DNA of 64,000 bases from positions 1-64,000 of the forward strand of contig JAHDQJ010000003.1 in the NCBI GenBank assembly GCA_018433865.1, written 5' to 3'. The position numbers and the translations under genes were made by a program. Shown here piece after piece: positions 51,391-58,425 of this stretch. Source of the DNA: Spirochaetales bacterium (lineage in GTDB: Bacteria; Spirochaetota; Spirochaetia; Sphaerochaetales; Sphaerochaetaceae). The notes under the pieces were generated by a model. It did no database searches, was not told the origin of the DNA, and worked only from the letters and a program-made list of their open reading frames with translations. Within the stretch, counting starts at the first letter, position 1. The number at the start of each line of letters is the position of its first letter.

Positions 51391-51942
51391 TCACCAACTG
51401 AACGACATGCGCTGTATGGGACTCGGTCCGTACGTGTGGCATGCCTGCCTGTGTGCGGCCGTGGGGTATCCTTTGTGCTTTGCGTATCCGTATAGCGGAT
51501 AGCGTCCATCCAGCAGTACCATCAGCCGGTCACGCGCGGTCTTCGCCAGGATCGAGGCCGCCATGATCTCGAATACCTTGGCATCTCCCTGCACGATCGC
51601 CTGGCACGGGGTTCCCAGGTCAGGCGTCCGGTTCCCATCGACAAGAACAAGATCGACGTGTCCGATACGGTTTGCCACCTTCGCGTAGGCCCGCTGCATC
51701 GCGTGCATGGAAGCGTGCAGGATGTTCACGCGATCGATCTCAGCGCGGCTTGCCCACCCGACAGCCCATGCGACGGCACGTTCCTTGATGATCCGTTCGG
51801 CTTGCTCGCGCCTGGCTGTACTCAGCTTCTTCGAATCGGCGAGGATCTCGAACGGAAAGTCCTTCGGGAGGACGACCGCGGCTGCCGACACCGGTCCTGC
51901 GATCGGACCCCGTCCCGCTTCGTCGATACCACATATGATCAT
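51391..51942 (-). CDS. rnhB: Ribonuclease HII
   Basis: Removes RNA from RNA-DNA hybrids and misplaced ribonucleotides. CGIDEAGRGPIAGPV carries the first two acidic residues (DE), SKKLS and LVLVDGNRTPDL the third Asp, and KVFEIMAASILAKTARDRLM the fourth (D). 183 residues from ATG 51942; three in-frame ATGs (51954, 51945, 51942) compete and none has a clear ribosome site, so the start is chosen from the family N-terminus. Confidence 0.94.
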   Translation of the reverse strand: MIICGIDEAGRGPIAGPVSAAAVVLPKDFPFEILADSKKLSTARREQAERIIKERAVAWAVGWASRAEIDRVNILHASMHAMQRAYAKVANRIGHVDLVLVDGNRTPDLGTPCQAIVQGDAKVFEIMAASILAKTARDRLMVLLDGRYPLYGYAKHKGYPTAAHRQACHTYGPSPIQRMSFSW

Positions 51943-52087: not shown

Positions 52088-54928
52088 TTGTTTCTCAAGA
52101 GTCTCGAACTATATGGTTTCAAATCGTTCGCCGACAAGACCCGTCTGGAATTCGCCGACGGAACGACGAGTCTGCTCGGTCCCAACGGATGCGGCAAGAG
52201 CAATATCGTCGATGCGATCAAGTGGGTTCTCGGGGAGCAGTCCACCAAGACCTTGCGTGCCGGCAAGATGGAGGATGTCATCTTCAACGGCACGGAGGCC
52301 CGCAAGCCGCTCAATGTAGCCGAGGTCACGTTGGTCGTCAACAACGAGGAAGGACTCCTCCCCGTGGACCATGCGGAAGTTGAGATCAAGCGTCGGCTTT
52401 TCAGGACCGGGGAGAGCGAATTCTTCATCAACCGTACACCTGTCAGGCTGAAGGACATTCGCGAACTGTTCTTCGACACCGGGGTGGGGAAGTCGGCCTA
52501 TTCGATACTCGAGCAGGGGAAGATCGACCAGATTCTCAGTCACAAGCCCGAGGACCGCCGCTATATCTTCGAGGAGGCAGCGGGTATCACCCGCTACAAG
52601 CTGCGGAGCATCGAAGCTTCCAGGAAGCTCGAGCGGACCGAGGAGAATATCGAGCAGGTCGAGACGCTTCTGGGAGAGATCAAGCGCCAATACGATTCGA
52701 GGAAAGCCCAGGCGGCAAAAGTCCAGAGGTATCGTGAACTGGAGAAAGAACAATCGGCGATCGAGGTGGATGTCCAGCTCTCGACGGTCAAGAGCCTGAT
52801 GCTCCTCATCGATTCGAGGAACGGGCAGCTCGCCGAAGCACAGGAAGCCTACGATCGTCTCAAGGATGAGATTGCCGAGCTCGCGCAGCTCCTCGAGGAA
52901 CAGCAGGGCGAGATACGACGGCATGCGGAGAATCGCCAGGCCGTCCAGAGCCGCATCCAGAGGCTCGAGGAACAGTTGAACGGAAAGCGTGACCAGCTGG
53001 AATTGCTGCAACAACGTTACAAGGACTTCCTCAGGAACAAGGACGAGGCCGACAGTCGTGCGCAGAGGATTCTCGAGAGAATGGAGCGCGATCGCGAGGA
53101 ACTCGAGGTGCAAAGGGACCACGTGACTGCGATGGAACAATCCATCAAGGAGTTGCAGGACAAGGTCTCGGGACATGAGCGGCAGATGCTCTCGACACAG
53201 AAGCAGATAGCCGAACACGATGCGGCGATCGGTTCTCACGAGGATTCGATGCTCACGGAGGAGGAGAAGCAGCGGGACCTGGCTCTCCGATTGCAGGAAC
53301 TTACCGACCGCATGGTGCAGGAACTCGACCAGAGGCTCAGCGAGAGCGGGTACTCCACACAAGTACGCAAGAGTGCGGAGCAGGCTTTCCTTCAGCGCCT
53401 GGCACACCTGAAGGCCCTGCTCGGCGAACGGAAGCAATTCTCGGGCAACCTGCGGAACATGATTGAAACACACGCTGCGGATCTGCAGGGTGCCTTGGGT
53501 CAGTGGGACCGTTTCCTCGAAGAGTTCTCCCGTTCGGTCGACGCGCTCTCCGATCTGTTCGATGCCTATGGGAAGACGCTCCCGAGCTTCATGGATGAAT
53601 TGCTCGCCCCAGAAGGAATCATCACCCGCAAGCATGCGATTGACAAGGAGATGCGTGATTCCCGTTCGCGCACGCAGAACCACCGCCAGTCGATCTCCAC
53701 GCTCCGCGAGGAGAACAAAGGCCTGGCGGACCTGCTGGAGCAGTATCGTGAACGGATGACCCAGATGAAGGTTTCCCTCGGTGAGAACACGGCCCGGTTG
53801 GCTTCGGCACGCAGTCTTGTCGAGACTCTAGAACGTCAGGAAACGGAACAGGGATATCTGCATGGGGATGCGCTGAGGGATGCCGAGGTCGCACAACAGC
53901 GCGTCGAGGAATCGATCGGCCAGATGGCCGAGGTCCGCGACGATCAGCAGAGGATCGCACGGGAGAAAGACTCGCTCGAGGGGCAGCTCGCAGAACTGAT
54001 ACAGCTCATCGAGACCGAGAACGACCGACTCGGTGGCGAGCGGCAGAAGATCAACCATCGGTACGAACAACTGAGCACGATACGGACCGACATCGACAAG
54101 TTCACCTTCCATATCGAATCGATCAACGAGCAGGTCCAGGCAGTCTACCGGAATTATTTCGATACCTATGGAAAGAGTCTGAAGGAGTATGAGGGACGAC
54201 TTGGAAGCGAGCTTGAGGATGTCGCGCTTCTTCGCGAACGTCTTGTGCAGATCAAGAAGCAAATCCAACAGATGGGCTACATCAACCATATGGCGCAGGA
54301 GGAATTCGAGGAGATCAAGGAACGATATGATTTCCTCATGCAACAAATGGGAGATCTCGTGAAGGCCAAGAATGACCTCACCCGCGTGATCGAGGAGATC
54401 CGCACACGATCTGAACAACTGTTCATGGACTCGTACCACAAGATCCGGGTGAATTTCCAGGAGATGTTCCATAGGATGTTCGGCGGGGGGAGGGCGGAAC
54501 TGAGACTGCTCGATCCCGAGAACATACTCGAGAGCGGCATCGACATCCTCGCGCAGCCTCCCGGGAAGAAGCTGGACCGTTTGGCACCGCTCTCAGGTGG
54601 CGAGAAATCGCTCACCGCGGTCGCACTGCTGTTTGCGACCTACAAGGTCAAGCCGTCACCGTTCTGCATCCTCGATGAGATCGATGCGGCGCTCGATGAC
54701 CGGAACATCGGATACTTCCTCAGCGTGCTGGAGGATTTTGCCGCGAGCAGCCAATTCATCATCATCACCCACAACAAACATACGGTGATGGGATCCAAGA
54801 CGCTCCTCGGGGTCACGATGCAGGAGCGTGGGGTGTCGAAAGCGATCAGTTACCGGATGGGATGGGAAGCGGACAAGGAAGTAATTCACGATGTACAGGT
54901 TGACACAGGTTTTGATAATGAAGTATAA
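52088..54928 (+). CDS. smc: Chromosome segregation protein SMC, short form without clear hinge
   Basis: A 946-residue SMC ATPase. The N-terminal head opens LKSLELYGFKSFADKT with Walker A GPNGCGKSN (residues 31-39); long coiled coils follow; the C-terminal head has LSGGEKSLTAVALLF and Walker B FCILDEIDAALDD. Most bacterial SMCs have about 1150-1200 residues and a glycine-rich hinge. Here the middle (about 430-560) holds a short stretch with LPSFMDELLAPEGIITRK and no recognisable hinge. The start is TTG 52088 with GGGAG about 7 bases upstream. Confidence 0.92.
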   Translation: MFLKSLELYGFKSFADKTRLEFADGTTSLLGPNGCGKSNIVDAIKWVLGEQSTKTLRAGKMEDVIFNGTEARKPLNVAEVTLVVNNEEGLLPVDHAEVEIKRRLFRTGESEFFINRTPVRLKDIRELFFDTGVGKSAYSILEQGKIDQILSHKPEDRRYIFEEAAGITRYKLRSIEASRKLERTEENIEQVETLLGEIKRQYDSRKAQAAKVQRYRELEKEQSAIEVDVQLSTVKSLMLLIDSRNGQLAEAQEAYDRLKDEIAELAQLLEEQQGEIRRHAENRQAVQSRIQRLEEQLNGKRDQLELLQQRYKDFLRNKDEADSRAQRILERMERDREELEVQRDHVTAMEQSIKELQDKVSGHERQMLSTQKQIAEHDAAIGSHEDSMLTEEEKQRDLALRLQELTDRMVQELDQRLSESGYSTQVRKSAEQAFLQRLAHLKALLGERKQFSGNLRNMIETHAADLQGALGQWDRFLEEFSRSVDALSDLFDAYGKTLPSFMDELLAPEGIITRKHAIDKEMRDSRSRTQNHRQSISTLREENKGLADLLEQYRERMTQMKVSLGENTARLASARSLVETLERQETEQGYLHGDALRDAEVAQQRVEESIGQMAEVRDDQQRIAREKDSLEGQLAELIQLIETENDRLGGERQKINHRYEQLSTIRTDIDKFTFHIESINEQVQAVYRNYFDTYGKSLKEYEGRLGSELEDVALLRERLVQIKKQIQQMGYINHMAQEEFEEIKERYDFLMQQMGDLVKAKNDLTRVIEEIRTRSEQLFMDSYHKIRVNFQEMFHRMFGGGRAELRLLDPENILESGIDILAQPPGKKLDRLAPLSGGEKSLTAVALLFATYKVKPSPFCILDEIDAALDDRNIGYFLSVLEDFAASSQFIIITHNKHTVMGSKTLLGVTMQERGVSKAISYRMGWEADKEVIHDVQVDTGFDNEV

Positions 54929-54963: not shown

Positions 54964-56295
54964 ATGTTTGATTCAATAAGCGAGAAATTTTCCTCAATCG
55001 TCAGGTCACTCGGTGGCAAGGCGAAAATCACTGAAAAGAATATCCAGGACGCGGTCGAAGAGATCAAGATTGCGCTGCTTGAGGCAGACGTAAATCTACG
55101 TGTCGTCAGGCGTTTCATCAACAGGACGATGGAAGAGGCCACCGGTGAGAAGGTGCTCAAGTCCGTCGATCCGGGGCAGCAATTCATCAAGATCGTCTAT
55201 GACAAGATGGTCCAGCTGCTCGGTGACGAGGAGAGCCAGCATCTCAACCTGAAGGGGCCCGACACCACGACCGTCATCCTCATGATGGGGTTGCAGGGTT
55301 CCGGAAAGACCACCACCGCAAGCAAGCTTGCCTACCGGCTCAAGAAACAGGGAAGGCGACCGATGCTGGTAGCGGCGGACTTGGTCCGTCCCGCTGCGGT
55401 CCTGCAACTGCAGGTCCTCGGCGAGAAGGTCGGAGTTCCCGTCCACGCCGAGGAATCGAAGGATCCCGTCTCCGTAGCCCGCAATGCCTTGGCAAGGGCG
55501 AAGCGCGAGCAGCATGACATCCTGATTGTCGATACCTCGGGGCGCATGCACCTTGATGAGACGATGATGGATGAGATCAAGCGGATCCACCACGCCGTCA
55601 ATCCGGACGAGACGCTTTTCGTGGCCGATGCGATGACCGGCCAGAATGCCGTCACGATCGCACAGGAGTTCGAACAGAAGGTCGGCATCTCGGGAGTGAT
55701 CCTGAGCAAGTTCGATTCCGATACACGCGGTGGTGCCGCACTCTCGCTCCGCTCGATAGTGGGAAAGCCGATCAAGTTCATCGGCACAGGCGAGAAGCCT
55801 GAGGACCTCGATCCCTTCTATCCCGACCGGATAGCTTCCAGGATCCTCGGAATGGGTGACGTCGTCTCCTTGGTGGAGAAAGCACAGGAGACGATCGACC
55901 AGGACGAGGCGCTTCGGATGCAGGAGAAGATGAGCAAGAACGCCTTCGACCTGCAAGACTACCTGGACCAGATCGACAGGATGAACAAGATGGGTTCGAT
56001 CGACAAGCTGATCGAGATGATCCCGGGAGCGAAGGGCAATGTCAGCGAGGATGACATCGACACGGCGGAATTGCGCCGGGAGAAAGCGATCATCCAATCG
56101 ATGACCTATGCGGAACGGACGAATTACCGTATACTGGGACCGACCAGGCGCAAGCGGATCGCCCAAGGTAGCGGAACGACCGTCTATGACGTGAACCGGC
56201 TGCTGAAAAAGTTTGAGAAAATGCGGCTTACGATGAAGAAGTTCGCAAAAAATAAGAAATACCAAGCTTCAATGTTGAAACACATGGGTATGTAA
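54964..56295 (+). CDS. ffh: Signal recognition particle protein Ffh
   Basis: SRP54 GTPase that recognises signal sequences and brings ribosomes to FtsY. The N domain comes first; G1 is GLQGSGKTTTASKLA, G3 is DTSGRMHLDE, G4 is SKFDSDTRGG; the C-terminal M domain is Met-rich and carries RRKRIAQGSGTTVYDVN, the 4.5S RNA-binding helix. 443 residues. It heads the run ffh-rpsP-khpA-rimM-trmD-rplS. Confidence 0.97.
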   Translation: MFDSISEKFSSIVRSLGGKAKITEKNIQDAVEEIKIALLEADVNLRVVRRFINRTMEEATGEKVLKSVDPGQQFIKIVYDKMVQLLGDEESQHLNLKGPDTTTVILMMGLQGSGKTTTASKLAYRLKKQGRRPMLVAADLVRPAAVLQLQVLGEKVGVPVHAEESKDPVSVARNALARAKREQHDILIVDTSGRMHLDETMMDEIKRIHHAVNPDETLFVADAMTGQNAVTIAQEFEQKVGISGVILSKFDSDTRGGAALSLRSIVGKPIKFIGTGEKPEDLDPFYPDRIASRILGMGDVVSLVEKAQETIDQDEALRMQEKMSKNAFDLQDYLDQIDRMNKMGSIDKLIEMIPGAKGNVSEDDIDTAELRREKAIIQSMTYAERTNYRILGPTRRKRIAQGSGTTVYDVNRLLKKFEKMRLTMKKFAKNKKYQASMLKHMGM

Positions 56296-56317: not shown

Positions 56318-56584
56318 GTGAGTACGAGTATCAGGTTGAAGAGGTTCGGTTCGAAGAAGAGACCCTACTACCGGTTGGTGGTGATCGATTCCCAGGCGGC
56401 ACGGGACAGCCGTTCGATCGAAGAGGTCGGACAGTACCATCCCATCGAGGCCGAGGACAAGCAGGTCATCCTTAAGGAAGACCGTCTCAAGGAGTGGATT
56501 GCAAAGGGTGCGCAGCCTTCCGCTACCGTGAAGAAGATCCTCAACAAGCATGCCATCACACTGAACAGAACGCCCCAAGCTTGA
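56318..56584 (+). CDS. rpsP: 30S ribosomal protein S16
   Basis: An 88-residue S16 with SIRLKRFGSKKRPYYRLVV and the RDSRSIEEVGQYHP motif. GTG start preceded by AGGAGGA. The order after ffh and before the KH protein and rimM is the usual one. Confidence 0.97.
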   Translation: MSTSIRLKRFGSKKRPYYRLVVIDSQAARDSRSIEEVGQYHPIEAEDKQVILKEDRLKEWIAKGAQPSATVKKILNKHAITLNRTPQA

Positions 56585-56599
56585 TCGGAGGGTTTTGTC

Positions 56600-56833
56600 G
56601 TGGAAAAGGATCTGGTTGAATATATCGCGAAATCGCTGGTGGACCAGCCTGACGAAGTTGCCGTGAACGTGATCGAGGGGGAGCAATCCACCATCCTCGA
56701 GCTCAAGGTCGCTGCGGACGATGTCGGAAAGGTCATCGGCAAGCAGGGACGGATCGCGAACGCAGTCAGGGTCATCCTCAGTGCCTCTGCGGCGAAGAGC
56801 GGCAAGCACGTCCAGTTGGAAATCCTCGACTGA
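56600..56833 (+). CDS. khpA: KH-domain RNA-binding protein KhpA
   Basis: A 77-residue single KH domain; the RNA-binding loop is GKVIGKQGRIANAVR. KhpA proteins bind a broad set of RNAs and are encoded between rpsP and rimM in many bacteria. The start is GTG 56600 and the stop overlaps rimM by one base. Confidence 0.94.
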   Translation: MEKDLVEYIAKSLVDQPDEVAVNVIEGEQSTILELKVAADDVGKVIGKQGRIANAVRVILSASAAKSGKHVQLEILD

Positions 56834-57336
56834 TGGAGTATCTTGCCACGGGAGTCCTCAAGGGACCCCACGGAATACAGGGATTCATCAAGTTGCACAC
56901 CTACTCTCAGGAGTCGGACCACTTGCATCGCATAGGGTCCGTCTCATTGCGCAAGGAGGGTGCCGAACGGCGAGTGGAGCTGGAGACCATCCGGATTACC
57001 GGACGTGAGATCCTGGTGAAGTTCAAGGGAATCGACAATCCCGAGGATGCCAGGAAATTCAACGGATGGGAAGTCTGGATTCCCCGGGAGCAGGCAGCCC
57101 CCCTGGATGATGGAGAGTTCTATGTCGCCGACTTGGCAGGGCTCTCGCTCACGGTGGGGGGAAAGCGGGTCGGACAGATCGTCGGCGTGATCGACGGTCC
57201 GCAGGCCTTGTTGCTCGAAATCCTCTCCGAAGCCGACGGAAAAACCCATCTGGTGCCATTCATGGCCCGGTATGTAGGCACGGTGGATCTCGAGAGGAAG
57301 GAGATGGAGCTTCTGGCTCCTGAGTTGTTGGGATGA
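56833..57336 (+). CDS. rimM: Ribosome maturation factor RimM
   Basis: A 167-residue 16S processing factor that binds S19. The N-terminal barrel has GVLKGPHGIQGFIKLHTY, and the PRC-barrel has EFYVADLAGLSL and later LVPFMARYVGTVDL. The 3' end overlaps trmD by ATGA. Confidence 0.95.
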   Translation: MEYLATGVLKGPHGIQGFIKLHTYSQESDHLHRIGSVSLRKEGAERRVELETIRITGREILVKFKGIDNPEDARKFNGWEVWIPREQAAPLDDGEFYVADLAGLSLTVGGKRVGQIVGVIDGPQALLLEILSEADGKTHLVPFMARYVGTVDLERKEMELLAPELLG

Positions 57337-58094
57337 ACTTCGATATCGTCACGCTGTTCCCGCAGATCGTGGAGAGCTTCTTCACCAGCTCCATCATGGC
57401 CAGGAGCGTCGAGGAGAAGTCCGTCACCTACAATCTCGTGAACTTCCGTGACTGGGCTTCCGATCGGCACAAGACCTGTGACGATGCCCCCTATGGGGGA
57501 GGTGCGGGGATGGTGATCAAGCCGGAACCGCTCGGACGTGCCCTGGATGCCATCGGAGCGAAGGAGAAGCGGGTGATCTACCCGACTCCCAGCGGAAAGC
57601 CGTTCACCCAGGATTATGCGCGGCAATTGAGCCGTGAGAAGGACTTGGTGATCATCTGCGGACGATACGAAGGTATTGACCAAAGGATCATTGACCTGTA
57701 TGTTGATGACGAGATTTGCATAGGAGACTATGTCATCTCGTCGGGCGAGGTCGCTGCGCTGGTGATCGTCGATGCGGTCTATCGGCTGCTTGACGGGGTG
57801 ATCAGTGGCGAATCGCTGGTCGAGGAGAGCTTTACCGACGGATTGTTGGAATATCCTCACTACACTCGGCCCGAAACCTATTGCGGAATTGCTGTTCCTA
57901 CGATATTATTGTCGGGTCATCATGCACGCATAGACCAATGGCGCTTGCGGAAACGGTTGGAGAAGACCCTGCTGAACCGTCCTGAACTGTTGGAACGTGC
58001 CGAGCTGGACGATCAAGCGAAACGGATTGTAGCTGAATTGAAACCATATGTTGCGAAGGGGACTGAAGAAGATGGATGTGATCAAGGCAATTGA
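57333..58094 (+). CDS. trmD: tRNA (guanine37-N1)-methyltransferase TrmD
   Basis: SPOUT methyltransferase of G37. [20 protein letters not shown] is the conserved start, [17 protein letters not shown] the substrate loop, and [15 protein letters not shown] and [15 protein letters not shown] the trefoil-knot SAM site. 253 residues; the C-terminal helical part is present. Overlaps rplS by 23 bases. Confidence 0.97.
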
Positions 58095-58425
58095 GTCTAA
58101 GCAAATGAAAGAGAACGCGGAGAACTTCCACGTTGGTGATACGGTGAAGGTCTACTTCACCATCAAAGAGGGTGACAAGGAACGCGTACAGGTATACGAA
58201 GGGCTGGTGATCGCATTCAAGAACGGCGGCATCCGCAAGACCTTCACCGTGCGCAAGAACTCCTACGGTGTCGGCGTCGAGAGGATTTTCCCGCTCCACT
58301 CGCCGAAGATCGAGAAGGTCGAGCTGATTCGTCGCGGTCGTGTCCGCAGGGCAAAGCTCTACTACATCCGCACCAAGATCGGAAAGGCGGCGAAGGTTCC
58401 CGAGCTCATCATCAAGAAGCGCTGA
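58072..58425 (+). CDS. rplS: 50S ribosomal protein L19
   Basis: A 117-residue L19: [26 protein letters not shown], the [26 protein letters not shown] core and the [14 protein letters not shown] end. ATG 58072 is the family start; the frame is open slightly further upstream. A terminator follows, closing the ffh-rplS run. Confidence 0.97.

Follow-up and report, generated by a model that had tools for sequence, protein, structure and literature searches.

The question raised by this locus is whether a chromosomal SMC protein can do without its hinge and, if so, what stands in its place. The window (the whole stretch of DNA analysed here, 64,000 nt from a Spirochaetales bacterium) carries an smc gene on its forward strand at 52088..54928, encoding 946 aa from a TTG start, with a stop codon ending at 54928. 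The frame is open upstream of 52088, where an ATG at 51707 would give 1073 aa; the best 80 relatives also match as far as residue 1 of the 946-aa form, beginning (L/V/M)FLKSLEL..GFK.

The original prediction was of a protein with two normal ATPase heads and no recognisable hinge, and the heads bear it out. The N-terminal head (52088..52585, forward strand; residues 1-166) has the Walker A sequence GPNGCGKS, and the C-terminal head (54350..54925, forward strand) has the signature LSGGEKS and the Walker B sequence ILDEIDAALD. All three motifs (GPNGCGKSN at residues 31-39, LSGGEKS at 835-841, ILDEIDAALD at 861-870) lie within near-invariant blocks of a 70-sequence alignment. PF02463 (SMC_N) matches over residues 2-918 (1.3e-69), a span that takes in both ABC half-heads together with their Walker A, signature, and Walker B motifs, and by sequence comparison the closest solved heads are those of the B. 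subtilis and Geobacillus Smc proteins. The match to TIGR02168 (SMC_prok_B, chromosome segregation protein SMC) scores 810.3 bits against a curated cut-off of 567.35; it is split in two, leaving the model's middle unmatched.

It had also been proposed that the protein might be closer to Rad50-like or MukB-like forms. A Rad50/SbcC-like or MukB-like protein would explain why there is no Smc hinge and why the protein is shorter than usual, but the Rad50 models score about 48-59 bits against cut-offs of 700-1087, far below the TIGR02168 score. No MukB family appears in the Pfam matches at E up to 10, nor among the 25 NCBIfam matches listed of 27 (E up to 0.01). The CxxC motif of the zinc hook was found in 0 of 157 spirochaete Smc sequences, whether in residues 395-525 or in the arms and middle together, so that there is no zinc hook. 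The surroundings of the gene and its partners also speak against this identity, which we regard as very improbable. Immediately downstream of smc is ffh (SRP54; 54964..56295, forward strand), which gives context for orthology, followed by the conserved neighbourhood rpsP, rimM, trmD, and rplS (56318..58425, forward strand); RNase HII is the divergent neighbour. The smc genes of Firmicutes have a similar neighbourhood.

The presence of scpA and scpB had been suggested as a check, and a profile search of the genome finds both: ScpA at C34:124438-125076 (5.4e-28) and ScpB at C34:123734-124210 (3.6e-47), adjacent to each other elsewhere on the contig that carries smc. Two perfect parS-like palindromes are found on another contig of this genome (C18). 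The heads, ScpAB, parS-like sites, and neighbourhood all point to an ordinary Smc-ScpAB cycle. Across 296 Spirochaetota genomes, ScpA was matched in 244 and ScpB in 246, and TIGR02168 in 295, in 235 of them above its cut-off.

Since this is a draft genome of 55 contigs, loss of the hinge from this one assembly or its annotation has to be considered. The same architecture is present in the best 80 relatives, including the complete chromosomes of Treponema vincentii and Breznakiella homolactica, and motif B of the middle region (described below) is recognisable across the phylum. An artefact is refuted by these shared features, and we give it practically no weight. Every one of the 80 relatives carries a spirochaete label (Sphaerochaeta, Treponema, Breznakiella, Gracilinema, and others), with 39-78% identity over nearly the full length.

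The canonical hinge is an alpha/beta domain. Its profile, PF06470 (SMC_hinge), has no match in the 946-aa protein at E up to 10, nor anywhere in the 2.9 Mb genome; the same search was positive in 10 of 14 control genomes. A second set of controls consisted of nine smc genes from a plasmid collection, eight of them scanned with Pfam (L183 was left out); PF06470 was strong in six of the eight, with E from 4e-14 to 1.5e-33. Among these, a Mesomycoplasma Smc (L178) of 979 aa has short arms like those of the window protein, but keeps the hinge, matched at residues 419-538 (E 1.2e-27). When 47 spirochaete Smc proteins were scanned, PF06470 was not among the 25 commonest of the 103 families found.

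Over the 296 Spirochaetota genomes, PF06470 matches occur in four, apparently none of them in smc. Two of these places were read, and by eye one is a JetC-like ORF, distinct from the smc of its own genome, and the other a phosphofructokinase-like ORF of 563 residues (L122, G236). With two of the four places read, none of the spirochaete smc genes yielded a hinge. The remaining two (G228 and G263) lie in ORFs of nearly equal length (562) in the same family as that of G236, and the matches of about 20 bits in these three genomes are apparently false positives of the hinge profile. The JetC-like SMC (L121/L169, G116:C27), from a genome of the window's class, is about 1085 aa long, with a PF06470 match of 26.7 bits, and stands beside a small ORF; by eye this locus is probably a Wadjet-type system.

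A profile miss by itself is weak evidence, because PF06470 misses or barely sees the hinges of Alphaproteobacteria: it is absent from the Sphingomonas Smc (L179) and reaches 25.3 bits in that of Azospirillum (L181), where the hinge looks reduced or strongly diverged. It likewise had no match in Caulobacter or Bacteroides ihuae, among the 14 control genomes. The profile could thus miss a canonical hinge that is still present in spirochaetes, and the case for hinge loss is carried instead by the helical prediction for this region and by the small size of some tips.

The region in question is a module at 53288..53641 (forward strand; about residues 401-518). It contains a conserved motif A, LTDRMVQELDQRLSESGYS (53300..53356, forward strand; residues 405-423), for which an alignment of 157 spirochaete Smc sequences gives the consensus L-T-D-x-I-V-x-x-L-D-x-x-L-x-x-x-G-Y-S; this motif is clear in the window's class. 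About 75 variable residues follow, corresponding to a helical hairpin of variable length (53357..53578, forward strand; residues 424-497), and then motif B, LPSFMDELLAPEGIITRKHAID (53579..53644, forward strand; residues 498-519), recognisable in most of the phylum, with the consensus P-x-F-I-D-E-F-L-A-P-E-G-I-I-T-K-K-R-x-I-D over residues 499-519 in the same alignment. The original prediction singled out a short insert, LPSFMDELLAPEGIITRK (residues 498-515), as the replacement for the hinge. The string is conserved rather than a chance one: in 70 aligned sequences G510 and K515 never vary, and conservation reaches at least 90% at P499, F501, P508, R516, and D519. It is, however, just the second half of the module. 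A loose pattern for motif B matches 140 of the 157 sequences, and the window's own copy (with TRKH) is among the 17 it misses; a family taken for Leptospiraceae has it as LLFDKEGTYMQKEAIDKEI.

Two AlphaFold2 models were made, from 70 and 78 of 79 sequences (the best relatives plus the window), and the tip is all helical in both. The full-length model (70 sequences; mean pLDDT 78.9) predicts no strand between residues 142 and 798. The model of residues 355-585 (78 sequences; mean pLDDT 89.6, falling to 68-80 in places within the tip) predicts helices up to residue 420, at 424-461, 466-497, and 501-506, and from 511 on. Searched against the PDB with Foldseek and VIA-align 2, the middle segment finds generic coiled coils and fragments of Smc arms among the matches listed, and the full model finds heads or whole SMC-like chains among those listed for it. 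Solved hinge domains on their own do not appear in these lists, an absence that carries no weight as proof.

Profile-profile comparison with hhalign links the tips of the window's class to those of other spirochaete families (98.5%, E 3.8e-15), to Leptospira-like tips (95.4%, 1.7e-8), and to those of a long-armed set (89.1%, 2.3e-6). Windows of canonical arms, used as nulls, gave at most 6.4% in 24 comparisons, and Leptospira-like arm windows at most 0.4% in four. A positive control of one canonical hinge against another gave 99.2%. Against six canonical hinges the three spirochaete tip sets gave 0.1-0.6%, while the alphaproteobacterial pair still gave 19.7%. Judged by such profiles, the tip is homologous across the phylum and unlinked to canonical hinges.

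These results bear directly on the idea of a canonical hinge that has diverged past detection. Besides the hhalign values and the lack of any predicted strand in the middle of either model, size argues against it: measured from landmark to landmark, the tip goes down to 74 residues (usually 101-110), and in a Borrelia-like family the whole module is about 79 residues, both short of the 116 positions that the hinge profile spans. We therefore consider a hidden canonical hinge quite improbable. The claim of no recognisable hinge within residues 400-600 holds by profile, by profile-profile comparison, and by predicted secondary structure. What had been presented as the peculiarity of a single protein is a trait of the phylum.

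The tip is carried on two coiled-coil arms, an N-terminal one of 234 residues (52586..53287, forward strand; residues 167-400) and a C-terminal one of 236 (53642..54349, forward strand; residues 519-754). Among the 154 sequences above 800 aa, and with the tip set at 401-518, the N arm has this same length in 138 and the C arm in 111. Distances between landmarks were also read without alignment. The one between the head motif and motif A is 244 in 78 of 78 parsed sequences, and the one between motif B and the C-head motif is 223 in 77 of 78; the span between motifs A and B, by contrast, has 20 different values, from 74 to 112, in these 78. Because the landmarks were taken from the window's class, the parsed sequences come mostly from that class; 79 of the 157 were left unparsed by these strict landmarks, which replaced a first pattern with too little stringency on the C side (84 of 157 unparsed). 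For prokaryotic SMC arms, Burmann and colleagues give length modes of 238, 341, and 515 residues (PMC5344682), and by these figures the 234/236 arms are on the shortest of the major modes, 238. The same work gives 253-267 residues as short arm lengths that still function in B. subtilis. Several deep spirochaete families (L127, L128, L129, L135, L138, L140, L171, and L174) have longer Smc proteins, of about 1000-1120 aa, with a C arm of about 310 by alignment, between the modes 238 and 341, and mostly the same motif B.

The set of 157 excludes two of the 80 relatives with an internal stop (L084, L087), the window itself met again (L117), and the non-SMC loci L121-L124, L169, and L170; L146 is represented by two fragments and L147 by one. 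Not all of the sequences are independent, as some genomes may share a species with the 80 relatives. The smc of L146 (G075:C30:51032-53766) is halved by in-frame TAG and TAA stops in a genome with ScpA and ScpB matches, and may be a pseudogene, an assembly error, or a split gene. Two nearly complete genomes of one family (G149 and G237, f9) have Smc matches of E about 1e-7 to 1e-8, none of them convincing, and no ScpA or ScpB match.

The Borrelia-like family (f5; L162, L163) has an Smc of 817 aa, with arms of about 201/211 and 195/212 and the tip of about 79 residues noted above. Motif B is lost in this family and is thus not indispensable. Among the matches listed, its members occur exclusively in genomes without a ScpA or ScpB match, and ScpB loss and erosion of the tip coincide in it. 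The Smc of Borrelia burgdorferi itself (BB0045) belongs to the same phylum. By profile, the Borrelia-like family in this sample lacks a hinge as well; compared with the window protein, the arms and tip of that family are shorter still and motif B is gone, and Borrelia has no ScpB.

Taken together, the protein is probably the chromosomal Smc of an ordinary Smc-ScpA-ScpB complex, in which a helical, putatively self-binding tip has taken the place of the hinge. The alpha/beta hinge would have been exchanged, at or near the root of the phylum, for a small helical tip built from motif A and the N-arm helix end that carries it, the variable helical hairpin, and a short helix and loop (FIDEFLAPEG) that runs on into the C-arm helix at TKKRxID. 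Two of these tips would most likely bind each other through motifs A and B, closing the ring at this end as the heads and ScpA close it at the other, and the arms, locked at 234/236, would serve as rigid spacers of fixed length that carry the ATPase cycle between heads and tip. The complex would load at parS and extrude loops, and the tip may touch DNA.

That the tip dimerises is suggested by two considerations: motifs A and B are the best conserved parts of the middle, and B. subtilis Smc is reported to need a tip that dimerises, of whatever fold. In that species growth is normal when a Rad50 zinc hook stands where the hinge was, so that no particular tip fold seems to be needed, and the protein is non-functional once hinge dimerisation is abolished (PMC5344682). 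Alternatively, the tip might not dimerise at all, with nothing but ScpA at the heads and contacts between the arms joining two Smc proteins (a rod), or it might bind some other protein. The free variation in hairpin length would suit this, as would the reduced tip of the Borrelia-like family and reports that Borrelia Smc acts in vivo without ScpB (PMC10406323, PMC9712426). One argument against it is that conservation within the middle is highest at motifs A and B, which fits an interface and not the bare end of a hairpin; the B. subtilis result is another, and we think a non-dimerising tip unlikely. A mean-field coupling analysis of the tip was discarded, because its top pairs (5.6 SD) did not reach the maxima obtained from five alignments with shuffled columns (6.0-7.0 SD), and it says nothing about intermolecular contacts. 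Most likely the tip has replaced the hinge as a homodimerisation module, on an Smc-ScpAB that is otherwise ordinary. Of the two alternatives first offered for the protein, a new dimerisation module is thus the better reading of the sequence, and a Rad50-like or MukB-like form is not borne out.

Compared with B. subtilis-type Smc-ScpAB, the window Smc shares the heads, antiparallel arms, scpA and scpB, gene neighbourhood, and parS-like sites, but has a helical tip of about 118 residues without the alpha/beta hinge, on shorter arms (234/236 residues, against 344 reported for wild-type B. subtilis; PMC5344682). The engineered B. subtilis Smc with a Rad50 zinc hook likewise carries an unrelated module on Smc arms and heads (PMC5344682); that protein was made in the laboratory, whereas the spirochaete case is natural, without CxxC, and phylum-wide. 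The closest published case, matched by description, is that of hinge-less SMC proteins in uncultured marine Actinobacteria, described in 2025 as a new kind of biology (PMC12153180). These share Smc-like heads and arms and have neither hinge nor CxxC, but form a small clade known only from environmental sequences, and the part of that account drawn on here describes no conserved replacement module (PMC12153180). Within the spirochaetes, Borrelia Smc is termed canonical in work that followed its effects by Hi-C (PMC10406323) and is reported to be recruited by ParB (PMC9712426); the word "hinge" does not occur in either paper. A T. pallidum interactome (PMC2386257) names SMC in its reference list alone. 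No statement of hinge loss in spirochaete Smc was found in the open-access literature; older subscription surveys may mention it. Prokaryotic SMC proteins were reportedly surveyed by Soppa in 2001.

The hinge is usually seen as a conserved part that helps to define SMC motors: the dimer interface, a possible DNA gate, and a DNA-binding site. One experiment has shown that another fold can stand in for it in B. subtilis (PMC5344682). A phylum that appears to have swapped its hinge would provide a natural test of the hinge's role, and a control for models based on hinge opening or DNA binding there; its fixed arms and tip of free length lend the published arm-length rule support of a purely sequence-based kind. 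On balance we favour the view that, near the root of the Spirochaetota, the hinge gave way to an unrelated, all-helical dimerisation module without a zinc hook, kept under the same strict arm-length rule. If this is true, it would amount to a hinge swap made by nature in a whole phylum, Treponema and Borrelia included, and in a part generally taken to be universal for SMC complexes, and DNA gating or obstacle bypass at the hinge would work otherwise, or not at all, throughout the phylum.
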